DNA of 49,585 nt, taken from positions 1 to 49,585 of the IMG/VR virus record IMGVR_UViG_3300036760_000326. One strand, 5' to 3'. Origin of the DNA: a virus. The notes beneath the pieces were generated by a model. That model worked only from the letters and a program-made list of their open reading frames with translations. It had not been told where the DNA came from and ran no database searches. The translations under genes and the position numbers were made by a program. Below are positions 18,307 through 25,146 of the stretch, in pieces (within the stretch, counting starts at the first letter, position 1; each line of letters begins with the position of its first letter).

Positions 18307-18801
18307 TTATTTAGCATCAAGCCGCAGCCTTCGCAGCCCAGCGACCGCAATGGCATAGGCGTCATATAGGTCAGGCGGACTCCAATCCGCCGGAAGATGA
18401 AAGTGCTGACACAGGAAGTCCTTGATAGCCGCCTTGTCAGCATTACCTTTCCCTATGACCTCCTTTTTCCACGTCGGGTTCTGGATGAAGTAGCATGGAA
18501 TACTCCATGTCGCACAGACCAGACGGACGTTGTGGATAGCGGCGGCCATCTGTACGAGGCTCCGGCTCCCACCCACGAAGGCCGTATCTTCACACCACAC
18601 ACTGTCCCGCTGCGAGTCCAGATTGTCAACGGCCCATGCCGTGAAGTCCTCGTAGAGCGAGCAAAGGCGCTCTTCGGCTAGGCGGGCCTTTGAACTTCCA
18701 ACGATTTCCATACCCAAAATGACCGGCTTACCATCCACAGGTGCCTCGGCTAACCGGATGATAGCGTAATAGCGCGTTGAAGGATCAATACCGATGATCA
18801 T
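18307..18801 (-). CDS. RuvC-like Holliday junction resolvase, 164 aa
   Basis: ATG 18801 is chosen: it overlaps the methyltransferase stop as ATGA and has AGAAAGG six bases upstream. RNase H-fold motifs are visible: GIDPSTRYYAI (5-15) with the first catalytic Asp, CEDTAFVGG with the Glu (about 70-78), the WKKEVIGKGNADKAA segment (about 111-125), and PDLYDAYAIAVAG with the final Asp (about 142-154). It resolves four-way junctions left by recombination-dependent replication. The recombination genes lie just upstream in the same message. Confidence 0.82.
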   Translation of the reverse strand: MIIGIDPSTRYYAIIRLAEAPVDGKPVILGMEIVGSSKARLAEERLCSLYEDFTAWAVDNLDSQRDSVWCEDTAFVGGSRSLVQMAAAIHNVRLVCATWSIPCYFIQNPTWKKEVIGKGNADKAAIKDFLCQHFHLPADWSPPDLYDAYAIAVAGLRRLRLDAK

Positions 18802-20057
18802 ATACATCCTTTCTTAAAATGAGCCAGCAACAGCCTCTTCCCGATCCATTCGATGACCGTCACGGTATTAGCGTCTCCGAGAGCAGCGCACCGCCTGCCA
18901 TCTGAGCACCGTGGACATGGGTCATCAAAGGGGGGATCGTCATGGGTGTGAACCCAGTCATCAGGAAAGGATTGAAGTCTAGAACACTCGACTGGGGTTA
19001 GTCGTCTAACAGAATAAGGGGCGTGTTCTGATGCCAAGGGTTCCCATCCCCCGTCGGGCGCAGGCAGCGCACAGCCATAGTAGGATTGCTCATCTCCTTG
19101 TCCTGGGGCTGCTCGCCTGATGCCTCCTGAGCCTGAACCGCCGATGAGTGGCACACAGACGACATTCCCCTCGTCTCCGTGGCTGTCGCTTCCTCCCCAG
19201 CGGTTGGAGCGCAGGGGCTGGGCGACGGCCTGCGTTACGCTGACGGGGTGGGTTGCCCCCTCTCGGTATCCTGTCTGGTTGGCTCCTTGATGGGCGGTTT
19301 CGAGGACGTAGGTATCATTATCGAGGTCTCCCCGCCATCCTTGCCCCTTTGCTCCGAGAGGTTTCGCAATGCCATCTCCAAGGATATCGGCAAAGCCCGC
19401 CCCCGCCTTTCCGCCCGTCGGAGTATCCCCGCCGCCGCCTTCGGGCTCAAAAAGTATTTCGGGTGGACATGGGGCTCCAAGATGTCCGACAATGTAGACA
19501 CGGCGGCGTCTCTGGGGCACTCCGAAATATTGGCTATCAAGCACTCGCCACGCCAAGCCATACCCGCATTCGGAAAGCGTTTCGAGGACGATCCCCATGT
19601 CTTGACCTTGCTGCGAAGACAAGAGACCAAGAACATTCTCGATAAGGAGCCATCGGGGTTTGAGAAGTGTGACCACACGGGCGAACTCGAAGAAGAGTCC
19701 ACTGCGTTCCCCTGCGAGTCCAGCCCTCTTGCCAGCGACCGAGAGATCCTGGCAGGGGAAGCCGCCGCAGATGAGATCAACACGCAGGGATAACCCTGGC
19801 CGGGCTTGCCCCCGCCTGACGTGAGTTGATGGCTGTACGGCGTCAGTAATACCTCGGCCCTCTGATTCTCGGAGACAGCCATCGGGGAAGTCTCGCACGT
19901 CTCCCCATCGGGGGACATCGGGCCAGTGTCGGGCAAGGATTTGGCTCCGCCAAGGGTCGACTTCAACCTGCCATTTAGTTTTCCAGCCCGCCTTTTCGAG
20001 ACCATAATCCATACCTCCGATGCCGCTGAACAAAGAGCCAACTGTTGGCCTTCTCAT
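18798..20057 (-). CDS. dcm: DNA (cytosine-5) methyltransferase, 419 aa
   Basis: ATG 20057 has AGGAG five bases upstream. An in-frame TTG at 20072 is less likely. Motif I FSGIGGMDYGLE is at 10-21. Motif IV G-F-P-C-Q has nucleophile C102. IENV is motif VI, QRRRRVYIVG motif VIII and RLTPVECSRLQSFP motif IX, and DANTVTVIEWIG stands at motif X. All catalytic motifs are intact. The target recognition region (about 215-330) is Gly-rich and unlike well-known enzymes. It probably modifies phage DNA against restriction. A 268-codon frame runs inside it in another register (19235-20041). Confidence 0.9.
   Translation of the reverse strand: MRRPTVGSLFSGIGGMDYGLEKAGWKTKWQVEVDPWRSQILARHWPDVPRWGDVRDFPDGCLRESEGRGITDAVQPSTHVRRGQARPGLSLRVDLICGGFPCQDLSVAGKRAGLAGERSGLFFEFARVVTLLKPRWLLIENVLGLLSSQQGQDMGIVLETLSECGYGLAWRVLDSQYFGVPQRRRRVYIVGHLGAPCPPEILFEPEGGGGDTPTGGKAGAGFADILGDGIAKPLGAKGQGWRGDLDNDTYVLETAHQGANQTGYREGATHPVSVTQAVAQPLRSNRWGGSDSHGDEGNVVCVPLIGGSGSGGIRRAAPGQGDEQSYYGCALPAPDGGWEPLASEHAPYSVRRLTPVECSRLQSFPDDWVHTHDDPPFDDPCPRCSDGRRCAALGDANTVTVIEWIGKRLLLAHFKKGCI
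19235..20041 (-). other. Long alternative frame overprinting the C5 methyltransferase
   Basis: In the +1 register of the methyltransferase gene, 268 codons are open. The derived sequence has VLISSAAASPARIS (about 87-100) opposite the PCQ region, and later LSDILEPHVHPKYFLSPKAA then GILRRAERRGRALP (about 184-218). From memory, both segments recur as predicted proteins in phage genomes, partly beside or inside cytosine methyltransferase genes. There is no convincing start or ribosome binding site at 20041. It is recorded as a frame of interest and not as an established gene. Confidence 0.35.
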
Positions 20058-20068
20058 ACTAGCTCCTC

Positions 20069-20143
20069 TCAAATATCGCGCTCATATTCATCTATGCCCA
20101 TTGCTCTCGGCGGCTCTGTATCGGGGTCAATACCGATAGTCAC
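20069..20143 (-). CDS. 24-residue peptide
   Basis: GTG 20143 shares its first base with the upstream TAG (TAGTG), and GGAGGAGAG lies a few bases before it. The frame closes with TGA 12 bases before the methyltransferase ATG. The product is acidic (begins MTIGIDPDTEPP, ends DEYERDI). No known family. The start-stop overlap and site match the real genes around it, so it is probably translated. Confidence 0.5.
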   Translation of the reverse strand: MTIGIDPDTEPPRAMGIDEYERDI

Positions 20144-20871
20144 TAGACTCTCTCCTCCCGTCGTGACCGCAGGCGCCGGAAGGTCGCACCCTTGCGCCCG
20201 TGGCCCTTCTGAATCAAATAAGCCGAGTCCGCAATGTCCACCAAAGCCTGCTCGTGGCTAACCACGAGGATCTGGAAGTCTAGCCGGTCGCACAACTCCC
20301 GGAGAACATCGCCAAAGGCGGGGATTAGATCGGGGTCGGCATTTGCAAACGGTTCATCTAAAACCAGCAACCGGCGCAGTGGTGGGCGGGCACTCAAGAT
20401 TAAGAGGGCTCGGAGCAGAACATTTAGGATGGCGATTAGGGTGCCACCTTTCGCGCCCATGACCCCCGTTTCCAAAGCATCTTTGCCTTCTCCCTGAATG
20501 ATACGCAGATCTACCGTTGTAATATCGGCCCGTACCTTCGGCACCAAGACGAGCTTGATTGGCTCCTCAAAGACGATTGACAAGCCACGGGAAATGACCT
20601 CCGCAACGGACTCCTGAAATTTACGTTGCCACGCTTCTTCGAGGCCCTGAAGAAGAGTCGTGACCTGTTCCAAGATCTCGACCTCTCCTTGTGATACCGA
20701 TAGGGCCTCTTGAGAACCGGACAATTGGCGGACAACCTCTGAGCGCACACCCTTCGCCTCCGCGATAGTGTCGGCCAACAAGTCACTAGCGGCACCAAGA
20801 TCTTCTATCCAGTCGCCGATAGACCCAAGGCTAGGCTTCTGTCGTTCCGGCAAGGCTAGCCTCCGCATCAT
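20143..20871 (-). CDS. C-terminal half of a split Rad50/SbcC ATPase, up to 242 aa
   Basis: A coiled-coil region (about 25-95) leads into an ABC-type ATPase half: a Gly-rich signature-like M-G-A-K-G-G (138-143), Walker B with L-L-V-L-D-E (168-173), the D-loop ANADP, and the H-loop V-V-S-H-E-Q (203-208). No Walker A is present. The partner with Walker A is encoded separately at 22108-23061. Start uncertain: ATG 20871 has no clear site, whereas TTG 20853 lies six bases after CGGAGG. Together the halves would form the DNA-end-tethering ATPase that works with the Mre11-like nuclease between them. Confidence 0.82.
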   Translation of the reverse strand: MMRRLALPERQKPSLGSIGDWIEDLGAASDLLADTIAEAKGVRSEVVRQLSGSQEALSVSQGEVEILEQVTTLLQGLEEAWQRKFQESVAEVISRGLSIVFEEPIKLVLVPKVRADITTVDLRIIQGEGKDALETGVMGAKGGTLIAILNVLLRALLILSARPPLRRLLVLDEPFANADPDLIPAFGDVLRELCDRLDFQILVVSHEQALVDIADSAYLIQKGHGRKGATFRRLRSRREERV

Positions 20872-21109
20872 CGAGCATTGCTCGCATCTCTTGCAAGGTG
20901 ATTTGTAACTTCCCTAGCTTCTTCTGGATCTCGCCACCTATGTCACTAGAGGGCTCATAACCCAAGGCCCGAATCTTCTTCTCGGTGGCATCAAATGCGG
21001 CCTGCGCCGCCTCCAAAGCGCCCTCGGTCTTGGCGAGGCGCGTCTCAGTCTGTTTAATCTGCTGCCGTAGCGTATTGATGGTCGCTACGATGTCCTCATC
21101 ACGTGGCAT
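20831..21109 (-). CDS. Small coiled-coil protein in the Mre11-Rad50 cluster, 92 aa
   Basis: ATG 21109 follows AGGAGGTAGT. Nearly the entire sequence is heptad-like helix, in two segments of about 30 residues (residues 8-45 and 58-88) split by a Gly/Pro turn (LGYEPSSDIGG), so it could fold as an antiparallel hairpin. It sits between the Mre11 gene and the Rad50 C-half and overlaps the latter by 41 bases. It could be the missing coiled-coil segment of the split Rad50 or an accessory subunit. This is inference from position and structure. Confidence 0.7.
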   Translation of the reverse strand: MPRDEDIVATINTLRQQIKQTETRLAKTEGALEAAQAAFDATEKKIRALGYEPSSDIGGEIQKKLGKLQITLQEMRAMLDDAEASLAGTTEA

Positions 21110-21118
21110 ACTACCTCC

Positions 21119-22111
21119 TTAGAGACCCGCGGCCTGTAGGTAAGCCCGAAGGCGCTCCTTTACATTATCTGGCACGCCGGTCAAAGCCGCCAGCATCTCT
21201 TCAATGGGTTGATCCTCAAGCACAAGAGAAGCCGCAAGCTGCTCAGCGAATTCCGCCAGGTCGGTGTCCTCACCCGCAAGCTCCGCCGGTAGAAAGACCT
21301 TCTCTGGCGGCAGCATCCCTGGTATCGGTGTCGGCTCTAGCTGCATCCCATCCTCGTCGATGAAAATTCGCACGAAGTTACGCGGCGTCTTAGGATTCAG
21401 ATTCTCTGCCGTCCTAGTGATGCGAGATAATGCCCCCAGGTTGATGAATGTTCCACCACCGGGCATCTCGGCCATGCCGAGGACATCATGGATGTGCCCG
21501 CAGAGCATCAGGTCAACTGGGCCATGCTCATCGAGCGGAATCTGATGCACGCCGATGTGCGGGTATGGCTTGACCCCACTTTTCGGAAGGATCGAGCCAT
21601 GCACAACCATGATCACGTAGTCCGCGGACTCAGCTTCGGTCTGCTCCTCCTCGGTCAGTGCATAGTAGAATGGATCGATGTCGCGCTCACTGTCGTAGGG
21701 GCGCCCGATAAAGAGCACGCGCTTCGCATCCTTCTCGAATATCCAAGTAGATCCTGAGTCAGGCATTAGGAGCCGGACAGCGCCGGTTTGTGCCAGAACA
21801 CCGAGCGGCTGCTTCTCCAAGGAAGCCAGTCCCATCTCGGTCATGTCATGATTACCGGCAACGCCAATCACAGGAACCGGCAAGGCTGCGAGTAGCTGAT
21901 ATAGTCTCCGCACGAGGCGATGAGAAGTCCTATCTGGGCGCTTTCGATGCCAGAAGTCGCCCGTAATGACCAGGACATCACATGGCTGATCGCGCATCAT
22001 CGCTGCAATGGCCTCTAATTTAGCGAAGATTTGTTCACCATATCCCTGCTGCCGACCGAGCGGCGGCCCATCCGAGAGATGTGGATCATTAATGGCCCAT
22101 ATTGAGATCAT
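21119..22111 (-). CDS. Mre11/SbcD-like nuclease, 330 aa
   Basis: ATG 22111 overlaps the Rad50 N-half stop as ATGA. Calcineurin-type metal motifs: N-D-P-H (8-11), G-D (51-52), G-N-H-D (86-89), a later His in VVHGS, and CGHIHD. The C-terminal 90 residues form a helical part that may bind Rad50 (PIEEMLAALTGVP). The protein is expected to trim DNA ends and open hairpins with Mn2+, in complex with the split ATPase encoded on both sides. Confidence 0.9.
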   Translation of the reverse strand: MISIWAINDPHLSDGPPLGRQQGYGEQIFAKLEAIAAMMRDQPCDVLVITGDFWHRKRPDRTSHRLVRRLYQLLAALPVPVIGVAGNHDMTEMGLASLEKQPLGVLAQTGAVRLLMPDSGSTWIFEKDAKRVLFIGRPYDSERDIDPFYYALTEEEQTEAESADYVIMVVHGSILPKSGVKPYPHIGVHQIPLDEHGPVDLMLCGHIHDVLGMAEMPGGGTFINLGALSRITRTAENLNPKTPRNFVRIFIDEDGMQLEPTPIPGMLPPEKVFLPAELAGEDTDLAEFAEQLAASLVLEDQPIEEMLAALTGVPDNVKERLRAYLQAAGL

Positions 22112-23061
22112 CTATCCCCCAAAACTGTGCCGCATAGCGGACACACGGTAAGCGATCCAAGAGCATCCGCCAAGAGCTTCTCATACCGATCAAGCGTCGC
22201 CTGCAAACTCTCCTGCTCACGTCGGAGAAGCGTCAATTGCTCCTTAGCGTCATGCCTACCCTGTACGGCATGAGCAGCCTCTTCCAAGTCGGATAAGGCA
22301 GCATCAAGCCTGTCCAAATCTTCGCGCCGTGGTAACTCAACCTCTCGCCGGGCCTGGGCCGCCTGATACAGCCGCCAAAGCTCGGTAGCTTCCTGCAACC
22401 CATTATATGTGTCCTGCGCCCGTAGCAATGCCGCCGCGATCTCTTTAGCCAACCGCTCAACGTCAGTAGTATCGACCAAGGCTGCGAGGTGCGTCTTGAG
22501 GCCCTCGATAATCTGGTCATATCTACCAACGTCCTGCTTGGCCCGCCGTAGATCACGAGCCGAAGCGACCTGTGCTTCCACTAACACTGCGAGCTTCGTC
22601 ATCTGCGCCAGGGCACGAGCCACCTTGCCTGCGGACTCCATGAGCAGCAATGGCTGGTCATATTGATCATGAATTTGTGGCGCGACGGAGAAGCCTTTAT
22701 CGATGTCAATGCTGCGGATGCCAAGGAGTGCTGTAAGCTCCTCCGGCACGGCACCGGCGAGCTTTCGATACTCCTGATGATCTGTCACATCGCCGATGCC
22801 CTCCTGAGCATAGCTAGCGCCACCCTTTGCATCCTTATCCCAGATGATCCGGCGGCCCTCTAACTCTACCATGACCTGACAATGGGTCGTACCCTTGCGG
22901 ATAAAATCAGCGCCAGTCTGGTTGAAAATGAGGGCTGATAGTGCGCGAAGAAGCGCACTCTTTCCAAGATTTCCCGGCCCGACAATTACATTCAAGGCAC
23001 CTAACGCTAGGTCAGCCTCCGAAATGCTCTGATAATTGGTAACTTTAAGCCGCGTTAGCAT
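22108..23061 (-). CDS. N-terminal half of a split Rad50/SbcC ATPase with terminal zinc hook, 317 aa
   Basis: Walker A G-P-G-N-L-G-K-S is at 28-35 after the start LKVTNYQSISEADL, which is typical of Rad50 and SMC-like N-lobes. A coiled coil of about 110 residues follows (roughly 185-300). The last 11 residues contain the zinc-hook motif C307-P-L-C310. In whole Rad50 the hook is in the middle of one chain. Here the chain ends at the hook and the C-terminal ATPase half is a separate gene (20143-20871). Dimerisation through the hook should still be possible. Confidence 0.85.
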   Translation of the reverse strand: MLTRLKVTNYQSISEADLALGALNVIVGPGNLGKSALLRALSALIFNQTGADFIRKGTTHCQVMVELEGRRIIWDKDAKGGASYAQEGIGDVTDHQEYRKLAGAVPEELTALLGIRSIDIDKGFSVAPQIHDQYDQPLLLMESAGKVARALAQMTKLAVLVEAQVASARDLRRAKQDVGRYDQIIEGLKTHLAALVDTTDVERLAKEIAAALLRAQDTYNGLQEATELWRLYQAAQARREVELPRREDLDRLDAALSDLEEAAHAVQGRHDAKEQLTLLRREQESLQATLDRYEKLLADALGSLTVCPLCGTVLGDR

Positions 23062-23067
23062 TTGGCC

Positions 23068-24201
23068 TCAACCGCCATCTTCGTCCTCGTCAAGGTCGTC
23101 GTCCGCGACACTAGATGGCGCTGAAATGACTAGCTTATTGCGGGCCTCCTCTAGCGCCTCCATAATGCTCGGCTCATCAGCCATGACTTCAGCAAGTTGA
23201 GACTCACGGAAACGCCGGTCGCCATACTTGCACCAGCCCTTTTCTTTGGTCACAATGCCCAATGCCAAGGCTACTGACAAAATCGAGGCCAGCTTGTCGA
23301 TGCCATCATCGAAGTTAATCACAATCTCGGCTTCGGAGAATGGCGCGGCCTTCTTGTTCTTCTGCACCTTAATCCGAGAGCGGATCGCGTATGGCGTCTT
23401 ATCGCTCCTACGCAAAATCTCGGTGCGGTGACACGTCAGAATCACCGAGCTATGGAATCCCAAGGGCCTTTCGGCAACCATCGTCTTAGACTGCCCTCGA
23501 CCGGCCCAACCACCCATGCTGATGCGATCCTTCTCCTGATTGATGAAGATCAGGAGAATGCACTCCTTGGCGATCCTGCGCGTCAATCGGCGTAGTGTAG
23601 AGGAGAGCGCCTTTGCATGCGGGCCAACCAGCACATCGCCGGGCTCGCCTTCCAACTCAGCCTTCGTCGGCGTCCCAGCCACCGAATCCCAAACGATAGT
23701 GACAAGAGTTTCAACCCCGGTCTTTTTGCGGGAAGCGATCACGGCATCAATGGTCTTCTCGATCTCACCCGTTGCCTCTTCCACTGTCTCTGGCTGCATA
23801 ACAATGAGCGTTTCGGGATTGATTCCCATGCGCTCTGCCCGCTCCTCATCAAAGGCGGCCTCTGTGTCCAATAAGACACCAATACCACCACGCGCCTGTG
23901 TCTCGGCCAAGACATGGACAGCTAGAGTGGATTTGCCTGATGCCTCGGCGCCCACAATGGTCACACTCCGTCCCACTGGTAAGCCAGGCCGATGCAGTGC
24001 GAAGTCCAATGCAAAAGATTGCGTCGAGACATAATCCTTTACATGGCTGAAAAGCTCGGAATCCGTTAGAATTGATGCCGAGCCATCGCCGAAGGCTTTA
24101 TGCACTGTCCCGACGATAGCGCTGATTGTCTCGCCACGAGCATCCTCTATGGAGGCAGGGCCTTCCTCGGTCTCCTGCCCCCTTGCCGCTCCCTTTGTCA
24201 T
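23068..24201 (-). CDS. recA: RecA-family recombinase, 377 aa
   Basis: ATG 24201 follows GGAAAG. Walker A G-A-E-A-S-G-K-S is at 84-91. VTIVWDSVAG is the Walker B strand, and loop-like segments with GRGQSKTMV and LIFINQEKD match RecA. Residues 39-60 hold an extra acidic, Ser-rich stretch, and the C-terminus is very acidic (DDDLDEDEDGG), as in bacterial RecA where it regulates DNA entry. It catalyses strand exchange in recombination-dependent replication, next to SSB and Mre11-Rad50 genes in one transcript. Confidence 0.9.
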   Translation of the reverse strand: MTKGAARGQETEEGPASIEDARGETISAIVGTVHKAFGDGSASILTDSELFSHVKDYVSTQSFALDFALHRPGLPVGRSVTIVGAEASGKSTLAVHVLAETQARGGIGVLLDTEAAFDEERAERMGINPETLIVMQPETVEEATGEIEKTIDAVIASRKKTGVETLVTIVWDSVAGTPTKAELEGEPGDVLVGPHAKALSSTLRRLTRRIAKECILLIFINQEKDRISMGGWAGRGQSKTMVAERPLGFHSSVILTCHRTEILRRSDKTPYAIRSRIKVQKNKKAAPFSEAEIVINFDDGIDKLASILSVALALGIVTKEKGWCKYGDRRFRESQLAEVMADEPSIMEALEEARNKLVISAPSSVADDDLDEDEDGG

Positions 24202-24207
24202 ACCAGA

Positions 24208-25146
24208 CTACTTTCCCGCTCGCGTGCGGAGAGCCCGGCTAACCCGACGGCTCGCGCTCTCGGTTCGGCGTGCTGGACGCGCCGCAGGCGCCTCTTGCTC
24301 CTCTTCCTCCTCCGGCTCCTCCTCCGGCTCCTCCTCATCTGGGAACCGTGGGCCATGCCCACGTGCCGGAGCAGCCCCAGCCCGACCACGTGCTAGATGC
24401 CGTAGAGAAGTCCGGCGAGGAGCTTCCTCTTCTTCCTCTTCCTCATCTTCCTCAGCGGCCTTGGCCGTGGCCTTGCCGGTGCCTTCATAGACTGACTGCA
24501 TCTCAGCATCGGATGGGTAGTCGAGGAATGTCGCCAGGTCGGTCAAAGCACCCTCCTTGTCGATGTCCGCCAAGAGTGGGTTCTTCTGCACCAATTCATC
24601 AGAGGGGAATGAAGAAGAACGCTTGGCGGCCTTGACGAAGTATTCGGTGTTTATGCCCGATCCGGTCTTCTCTACGATGAGGTCATAGCCGTCCTCCAAA
24701 TCCGTGATGTCGCCGTACTCCCTGTCCCTGACGTAGTAATGCACTTGGCGCATAGCCTTAACACCAGCCGACCATACCTGCACGCCTTTCTCCGGGTGTG
24801 CGATGTCGACGATGTTCATGAGGTACTTGCGCTTCGGGAACAGGTCTTTCGCCTCAGCCTGATCATCCTCGTCTGAGGACTTCTTCAGACTATTCGCCAG
24901 GCTACACAGGAAACAAGTATCCCGTACCCCGGCGGCTAGCGGACAAGGCATCGTGCGGTCATCGGGCCCGATGCCATAATGAAATGCCGTCTCAAAGAAG
25001 TAGCGCCCAGCCTCGGCAGCTTCCTCCGACCAAGGCGGCAAGATGCGGATGCGGTTGCGGCCTTCTGCTACCGCCCAGTAGTTTCCGCCGCCCTCTAATG
25101 CCTGGGCGACCTCATCCGCCTTGTCAATGTTCAGTTTGTACGCCAT
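24208..25146 (-). CDS. Single-stranded DNA-binding protein, T4 gp32-like, 312 aa
   Basis: ATG 25146 has GGAGG. The first 190 residues resemble gp32-type phage SSBs: RIRILPPW, a metal site with C68, C77 and C80 in MPCPLAAGVRDTCFLC (67-80), and KYLMNIVDI. The tail from about 220 is low-complexity: Glu runs, Arg/Ala segments, Glu runs again, and a strongly basic end (SRRVSRALRTRAGK). SSB tails normally end acidic to recruit partners, so the basic end is unusual. The corresponding DNA has long GAG/GAA repeats. It precedes recA by seven bases. Confidence 0.82.
   Translation of the reverse strand: MAYKLNIDKADEVAQALEGGGNYWAVAEGRNRIRILPPWSEEAAEAGRYFFETAFHYGIGPDDRTMPCPLAAGVRDTCFLCSLANSLKKSSDEDDQAEAKDLFPKRKYLMNIVDIAHPEKGVQVWSAGVKAMRQVHYYVRDREYGDITDLEDGYDLIVEKTGSGINTEYFVKAAKRSSSFPSDELVQKNPLLADIDKEGALTDLATFLDYPSDAEMQSVYEGTGKATAKAAEEDEEEEEEEAPRRTSLRHLARGRAGAAPARGHGPRFPDEEEPEEEPEEEEEQEAPAARPARRTESASRRVSRALRTRAGK

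Follow-up and report, generated by a model that had tools for sequence, protein, structure and literature searches.

Can a Rad50 protein work when its polypeptide chain ends at the zinc hook? The question is raised by a virus sequence of 49,585 nucleotides (IMG/VR record IMGVR_UViG_3300036760_000326, positions 1 to 49,585; the whole stretch is called the window here), in which the two halves of a Rad50-like ATPase are encoded by separate genes. The Rad50 N-half (WA) stops at the hook, the Rad50 C-half (WB) is a second protein, and an Mre11/SbcD-like phosphoesterase (SbcD) and a small coiled-coil protein (CC) are encoded between them. In Rad50 and SMC proteins the signals between the ATPase heads and the hook or hinge are thought to travel along one continuous coiled coil. 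The Rad50/SbcC and Mre11/SbcD proteins of bacteria, archaea and eukaryotes resemble the viral set in their ABC-type head, CxxC hook, coiled-coil arm and adjacent SbcD/Mre11 gene. They differ from it in that Rad50/SbcC is one chain with a central hook, a head half at either end, an intact LSGGE motif and no CC. Our best explanation, to which we assign a probability of about three in four, is that the locus encodes a phage Mre11-Rad50 (SbcCD-type) complex for DNA-end processing in which Rad50 is made as three proteins.

Results

Both halves are homologous to Rad50

An earlier note on this DNA had described a split Rad50 here; its coordinates and its description of the locus are exact to the base (Table 1). 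The Walker A half does end at a C-P-L-C hook: the C-terminus of WA reads CPLCGTVLGDR, with the two cysteines at C307 and C310 of 317 residues and a tail of 7 residues before the stop. The Walker B half is a distinct gene, and both Mre11 and the 92-residue coiled-coil protein lie between the halves, as claimed. The gene order on the minus strand is WA, SbcD, CC and WB, with genes for RecA/UvsX and for a DNA methyltransferase on either side. Because the WA stop and the SbcD start overlap in an ATGA, CC is preceded by a strong Shine-Dalgarno sequence (AAGGAGG) and the WB start codon lies 41 nt inside CC, the four genes look like one translation-coupled operon. SbcD is complete, with five of five phosphoesterase motifs (DPH9-11, GDFWH51-55, GNHD86-89, HG171 and GHIH205-208) and a match to Pfam Metallophos at 2.5e-13.

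Profiles built from the WA and WB families were compared with solved structures in the PDB, and both halves are homologous to Rad50. The best match of the WB profile is 3qkr_B (4.5e-15); ten Rad50 chains fall below 1e-10, 1ii8_B and 1f2t_B also being matched, and in several cases the matched chain is the C-terminal one of a crystal construct made of two chains. The best matches of the WA profile are Rad50 heads (5f3w, 1.7e-16). Separately, positions 412-473 of this profile align with the zinc hooks 6zff_A (21-82; 2.8e-6) and 1l8d_A (4-64 of 112; 1.7e-5). The latter match takes in the ascending helix with the hook and ends where the descending helix begins. Across 32 aligned WA relatives the hook residues C307, P308 and C310 are invariant, as are G28, G33 and K34 of Walker A. 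Invariance of the hook in 32 relatives, together with recurrence in about 120 loci, exceeds what chance would give. Modelled with AlphaFold2 (mean predicted local distance difference score 82.8, predicted template modelling score 0.46), the window WA consists of a Rad50-like head followed by a single helix of 160 residues (144-303), which stops at the hook and has no return strand. A fold search with this model returned the Rad50 ABC-ATPase 1f2u as the top PDB match (1.6e-5).

Two features of Rad50 are not shared. The hook stands at the end of a chain and the halves have separate genes in 77 distinct N-halves, where Rad50 is one chain with a central hook. The signature LSGGE/Q is replaced by K-G-G-T in the window, and most relatives have R-G-G-G. 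The serine of this motif, S793 in P. furiosus Rad50, makes contact with ATP in Rad50; it aligns with a lysine in the window WB and mostly with an arginine in relatives. Because of these departures (hook position, split, CC and serine) the system is not filed as an ordinary Rad50/SbcC member. It is most likely a variant that works like Rad50/SbcC.

The split recurs in phages and prophages

The first relatives were found through annotated phages, namely Bacillus phage vB_BboS-125, Tunturiibacter phage Tunturi_5, Microcystis phage Mvi-JY20, Microbacterium phage Magritte and a jumbo phage of 485 kb. Prophages of Bacillota and viral contigs were added next. Scans of viral contigs with single proteins (the window WA, WB and Mre11, the Microcystis C-half and the Tunturi N-half) gave no relatives. 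The same set of parts recurs in jumbo phages and in phages or prophages whose hosts are Bacillota, cyanobacteria and Acidobacteriota. A profile search of about 120 loci, some of which overlap on one contig and are counted separately, found WA in 119, CC in 113, WB in 124 and SbcD in 122; in 4 loci with no CC match an open reading frame of 78-84 amino acids occupies the CC slot. A stand-alone WB (an open frame of roughly 150-315 amino acids with E < 1e-17) is present in about 63 of 398 Bacillota genomes, and all four genes were present in each of the 20 loci of this kind that were reopened.

Three gene orders were found: SbcD-WA-CC-WB, WA-CC-WB-SbcD and WA-SbcD-CC-WB. The last is that of the window; a search for it in other phages, which the earlier note had proposed, located it in Mvi-JY20 and in jumbo phages as well. 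The placement of Mre11 between the halves is one of three arrangements and is not essential. Wherever they are clustered, WA, CC and WB are colinear with a single Rad50 chain, while SbcD stands before, inside or after them. Clustering itself is not universal. In Tunturi_5, WB lies about 100 kb away from WA; in Magritte, which lacks the hook and the CC gene, the halves are about 93 kb apart (gp155, L002:6001-7053; gp2, L001:284-934). In such phages the halves would have to find each other after being made as separate chains. A CC match in Magritte (E 4.8e-4) was rejected as spurious, as it falls in an unrelated open reading frame.

The SbcD gene of vB_BboS-125 (L004:8247-9227, plus) is unannotated in the public record, where it corresponds to a gap between gp36 and gp37.

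In the PHROG collection the WA, CC and WB proteins of the relatives fall into families 16465 ("exonuclease"), 18563 (unknown function) and 15167 ("ATPase"), with E-values down to 1e-150, and 2.6e-32 for CC against 18563. The window C-half and N-half match 15167 and 16465 at 1.7e-10 and 3.4e-25; among the matches listed for the window CC there was none to 18563. The three families are unconnected in PHROGs and none is labelled as a split Rad50. In NCBIfam nothing exceeded the cut-offs for the window proteins or the relatives tested. On one plasmid, one of the parts is annotated as "ParA".

Natural fusions join the parts

In three Bacillota genomes (of the 398), SbcD, the WA head and WB are joined in one chain of 684-700 amino acids that lacks a hook and has next to no coiled coil: L089 (4764-6818, plus), L090 (5652-7754, minus) and L091 (5583-7670, minus). 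These chains amount to armless Mre11-Rad50 proteins. In four other loci (L127, L141, L165 and L169) SbcD is fused to a WA with a terminal hook, and CC and WB are separate. The putative partnership with SbcD has two correlates in the genes, an intact SbcD gene adjoining WA and the natural SbcD fusions. The fusions, and the joint absence of hook and CC, lend support to a common complex.

One of these loci bears on an older report. Yoshida et al. (2011) described an SbcDC fusion in Bacillus phage 0305phi8-36 in which one P-loop NTPase segment "was not observed", and likewise in Anaerostipes (PMC3175470). L141, which by our inference is 0305phi8-36, has this segment as a separate downstream WB gene, with a CC gene in between. 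On this identification the segment reported as missing is the separate WB gene, and the fusion belongs with the split type.

The same split was found in isolated phages, in finished chromosomes that carry prophages and in plasmids. The stop codon is kept even in six loci in which WA and CC are adjacent in one frame (L003, L098, L093 and L113-L115). Taken together, the recurrent cassette, the Rad50 profile matches and the natural fusions strongly support a genuinely split Rad50 with Mre11 and CC as its partners.

A candidate for the return arm

Since the WA chain ends at the hook, its ascending helix must find an antiparallel partner in a different protein chain. The window WA measures about 157 residues from head to hook, against about 165 for CC (92) and the N-terminal coil of WB (about 80-99) together. 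The CC gene invariably lies between the hook and WB, and where the hook is lost, in Magritte and in the fusions L089-L091, so is CC; for these reasons CC would be the outer part of the return arm. In L159 (3594-5909, plus) an SbcD-WA fusion continues for 138 coiled-coil residues beyond the hook and there is no separate CC gene; the median tail after CxxC in the 77 non-redundant hook-bearing WA proteins is 13 residues. The segment behind the L159 hook resembles CC weakly (E 0.02 in a search with two sequences), which is only suggestive of a natural WA-CC fusion.

WA and CC of L098 were also modelled with AlphaFold2 as one chain, the single stop between them being read through as a modelling device that implies no claim about translation. 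In this model CC is a helix of 45 residues, a turn with G-x-x-P and a helix of 25 residues. A search of solved structures with the CC profile gave just generic helical and PPR matches, which we judged to be chance. The earlier note had suggested that CC completes the return arm. Colinear order, lengths, joint absence with the hook and L159 fit this suggestion, which makes CC a candidate for the role.

The length of the stalk

The WA arms of 77 loci fall into length clusters near 152-156 (the window), 198-210, 249-261, 296-308 and 352-358 residues, and their sequences correlate best with themselves when shifted by 47 or 94. This ladder with steps of about 47 residues is a further departure from Rad50. 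The arm of the window is of the shortest kind, and there the ascending and returning lengths agree. In the L098 model the helix breaks at about 200, 254 and 301. The extra 47-residue units of the long arms probably fold on themselves. A return arm that scales with the WA arm was considered and rejected, the correlation being -0.21 in a comparison in which some C-half lengths include upstream extensions of the open reading frame.

L165 (2293-4755, plus) and L169 (3199-5616, plus) encode SbcD-WA fusions of 805-820 amino acids; the arm values of 682-712 obtained for them are an artefact of untrimmed SbcD.

Table 1. Genes and motifs of the split Rad50 locus and its neighbours (positions in the window).
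Feature	Position	Strand	Description or basis
WA, Rad50 N-half, 317 aa (amino acids)	22108-23061	minus	ATPase head with Walker A, then ascending helix up to zinc hook
Walker A of WA, GPGNLGKS, residues 28-35	22957-22980	minus	Sequence motif
Zinc-hook motif C-P-L-C of WA, residues 307-310	22132-22143	minus	Sequence motif and family profile against solved hooks
SbcD/Mre11-like phosphoesterase, 330 aa	21119-22111	minus	Motifs and Pfam
CC, coiled-coil protein, 92 aa	20831-21109	minus	Helix-turn-helix with conserved G-x-x-P turn (fold from L098 relative)
WB, Rad50 C-half, 242 aa	20143-20871	minus	ATPase lobe carrying Walker B and the H-switch, preceded by a coil at the N-terminus
Walker B of WB, LLVLDEP, residues 168-174	20350-20370	minus	Sequence motif
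H-switch histidine H206 of WB	20254-20256	minus	Sequence motif
Signature-motif equivalent of WB, K-G-G-T, residues 141-144 (Rad50: S-G-G-E)	20440-20451	minus	Comparison with Rad50
UvsX/RecA-like recombinase	23068-24201	minus	Neighbour in recombination region
gp32-like single-strand DNA binding protein	24208-25146	minus	Neighbour
RuvC-like Holliday junction resolvase	18307-18807	minus	Neighbour

A DNA cytosine methyltransferase-like gene with a TTG start (18798-20072, minus) lies directly downstream of WB.

Discussion

In the explanation that we favor, WA would contribute Walker A, the Q-loop, the ascending arm and the terminal zinc hook, and WB would contribute Walker B, the H-switch and the base of the descending arm, so that both would form one composite ABC-type ATPase head. 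Two such heads would sandwich ATP over an SbcD dimer. CC would pair with the outer ascending arm beside the hook and, together with the WB coil, supply the missing return strand, while two WA tips would be joined through one zinc ion held by the terminal CxxC motifs. Opening and closing of the heads, driven by ATP, would gate SbcD at DNA ends, and SbcD would trim ends of phage DNA for the neighboring RecA/UvsX, single-strand DNA binding protein and RuvC, like gp46/gp47 of T4.

Several observations weigh against this explanation or parts of it. In long-armed relatives the WA arm has 200-356 amino acids, whereas CC plus WB coil stays near 165; the return strand can therefore not span the whole arm, which leaves a surplus that is either unpaired or folded back upon itself. 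The signature serine is replaced, and according to the title of PDB entry 1us8 the signature motif is essential to ATP binding; the ATP cycle may hence be weak or arranged differently from that of Rad50. The window proteins share just 20-30% identity with their relatives. The correlations between the distance matrices of the four proteins (r 0.84-0.93; maximum of 0.38 in 500 permutations) speak for the explanation, but shared inheritance alone could produce them. Finally, computation shows the genes, their motifs and conservation, the homology of both halves to Rad50 and the terminal place of the hook; the assembly of the halves, the part of CC in the return arm, the zinc dimerisation, the ATP cycling and the nuclease role in end processing are what we infer.

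One alternative concerns the stalk. The complex could be real with CC as an accessory, for example a hook cap or an Nbs1-like adaptor, and with the ascending helix pairing with a second WA or folding back. The L098 model, in which CC is no single rod, is in line with this, as are the long arms broken into helices about 47 residues apart beside a CC of constant length. However, the window arm equals CC plus WB coil in length, and CC keeps its place between hook and WB, disappears with the hook and is perhaps fused behind it in L159; we thus regard an accessory role as rather unlikely. That the halves are independent proteins, neighbors by accident with no joint ATPase, would account for the distances of tens of kilobases or more in Tunturi_5 and Magritte. 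Yet each half lacks the catalytic motifs of the other, the two match complementary parts of Rad50, they co-occur almost always and they are fused in L089-L091, which makes independence most improbable.

The earlier note had itself named an assembly error as the alternative to a split. We found nothing in favor of an error, or of decay of one gene, and either has practically no chance of being right: Mre11 lies between the halves, the frames are clean and have start signals, and unrelated genomes, among them those of isolated phages, prophages and plasmids, show the split again, with the WA stop kept even where CC adjoins in frame. A module for defence or counter-defence of the Lamassu, MADS or Gabija type, in place of replication or recombination, is quite improbable. 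The halves have weak profile matches to LmuB, Mad3 and GajA, proteins with an ATPase fold in common; a search for the full protein set of Lamassu, MADS and Gabija gave no match beyond weak ones to this common fold. All along, the halves are accompanied by an SbcD nuclease, partner genes specific to any of these systems were not seen, and the neighbors in the window are RecA/UvsX, a gp32-type single-strand DNA binding protein and RuvC.

The three-protein Rad50 complex can be placed beside known systems. T4 gp46/gp47 (phrog_77 and phrog_100) is likewise a phage SbcC/SbcD pair in a recombination region, but gp46 is a single chain; both split halves match phrog_77 weakly, in complementary parts. 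The two-chain Rad50 crystal constructs (1f2t, 1f2u and 1ii8), which are among the best matches, demonstrate that separate N- and C-chains form a working head. They are laboratory-made, however, whereas the phage split is natural and retains arm and hook. In the consulted sections of jumbo-phage surveys (PMC7824862) SbcC and SbcD are near universal, and these sections mention no split. Among open-licence papers we found no description of a split Rad50/SbcC.

The odds seem to us evenly balanced on a further proposal, namely that these proteins are a separate branch of Mre11-Rad50. Its Rad50 would be broken twice, once directly behind the hook and once midway along the return arm, and would have a modular stalk of several proteins, a length set by the number of about 47-residue WA units, exchangeable hook subunits and a head with a basic residue for the signature serine.

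The split version has apparently gone unrecognised in many other phages and prophages. Its recognition proposes a function for three phage families annotated as "exonuclease", "ATPase" and unknown, and it explains the "missing P-loop segment" of 0305phi8-36 from 2011. The parts are small and can be expressed separately, which is useful for biochemistry, and a single arm could be replaced. A widespread natural Rad50 that is cut at the hook and in mid-arm provides a direct test of whether the continuity of the chain matters. If the separate branch with its twice-broken chain is true, communication between head and hook would need no continuous chain.

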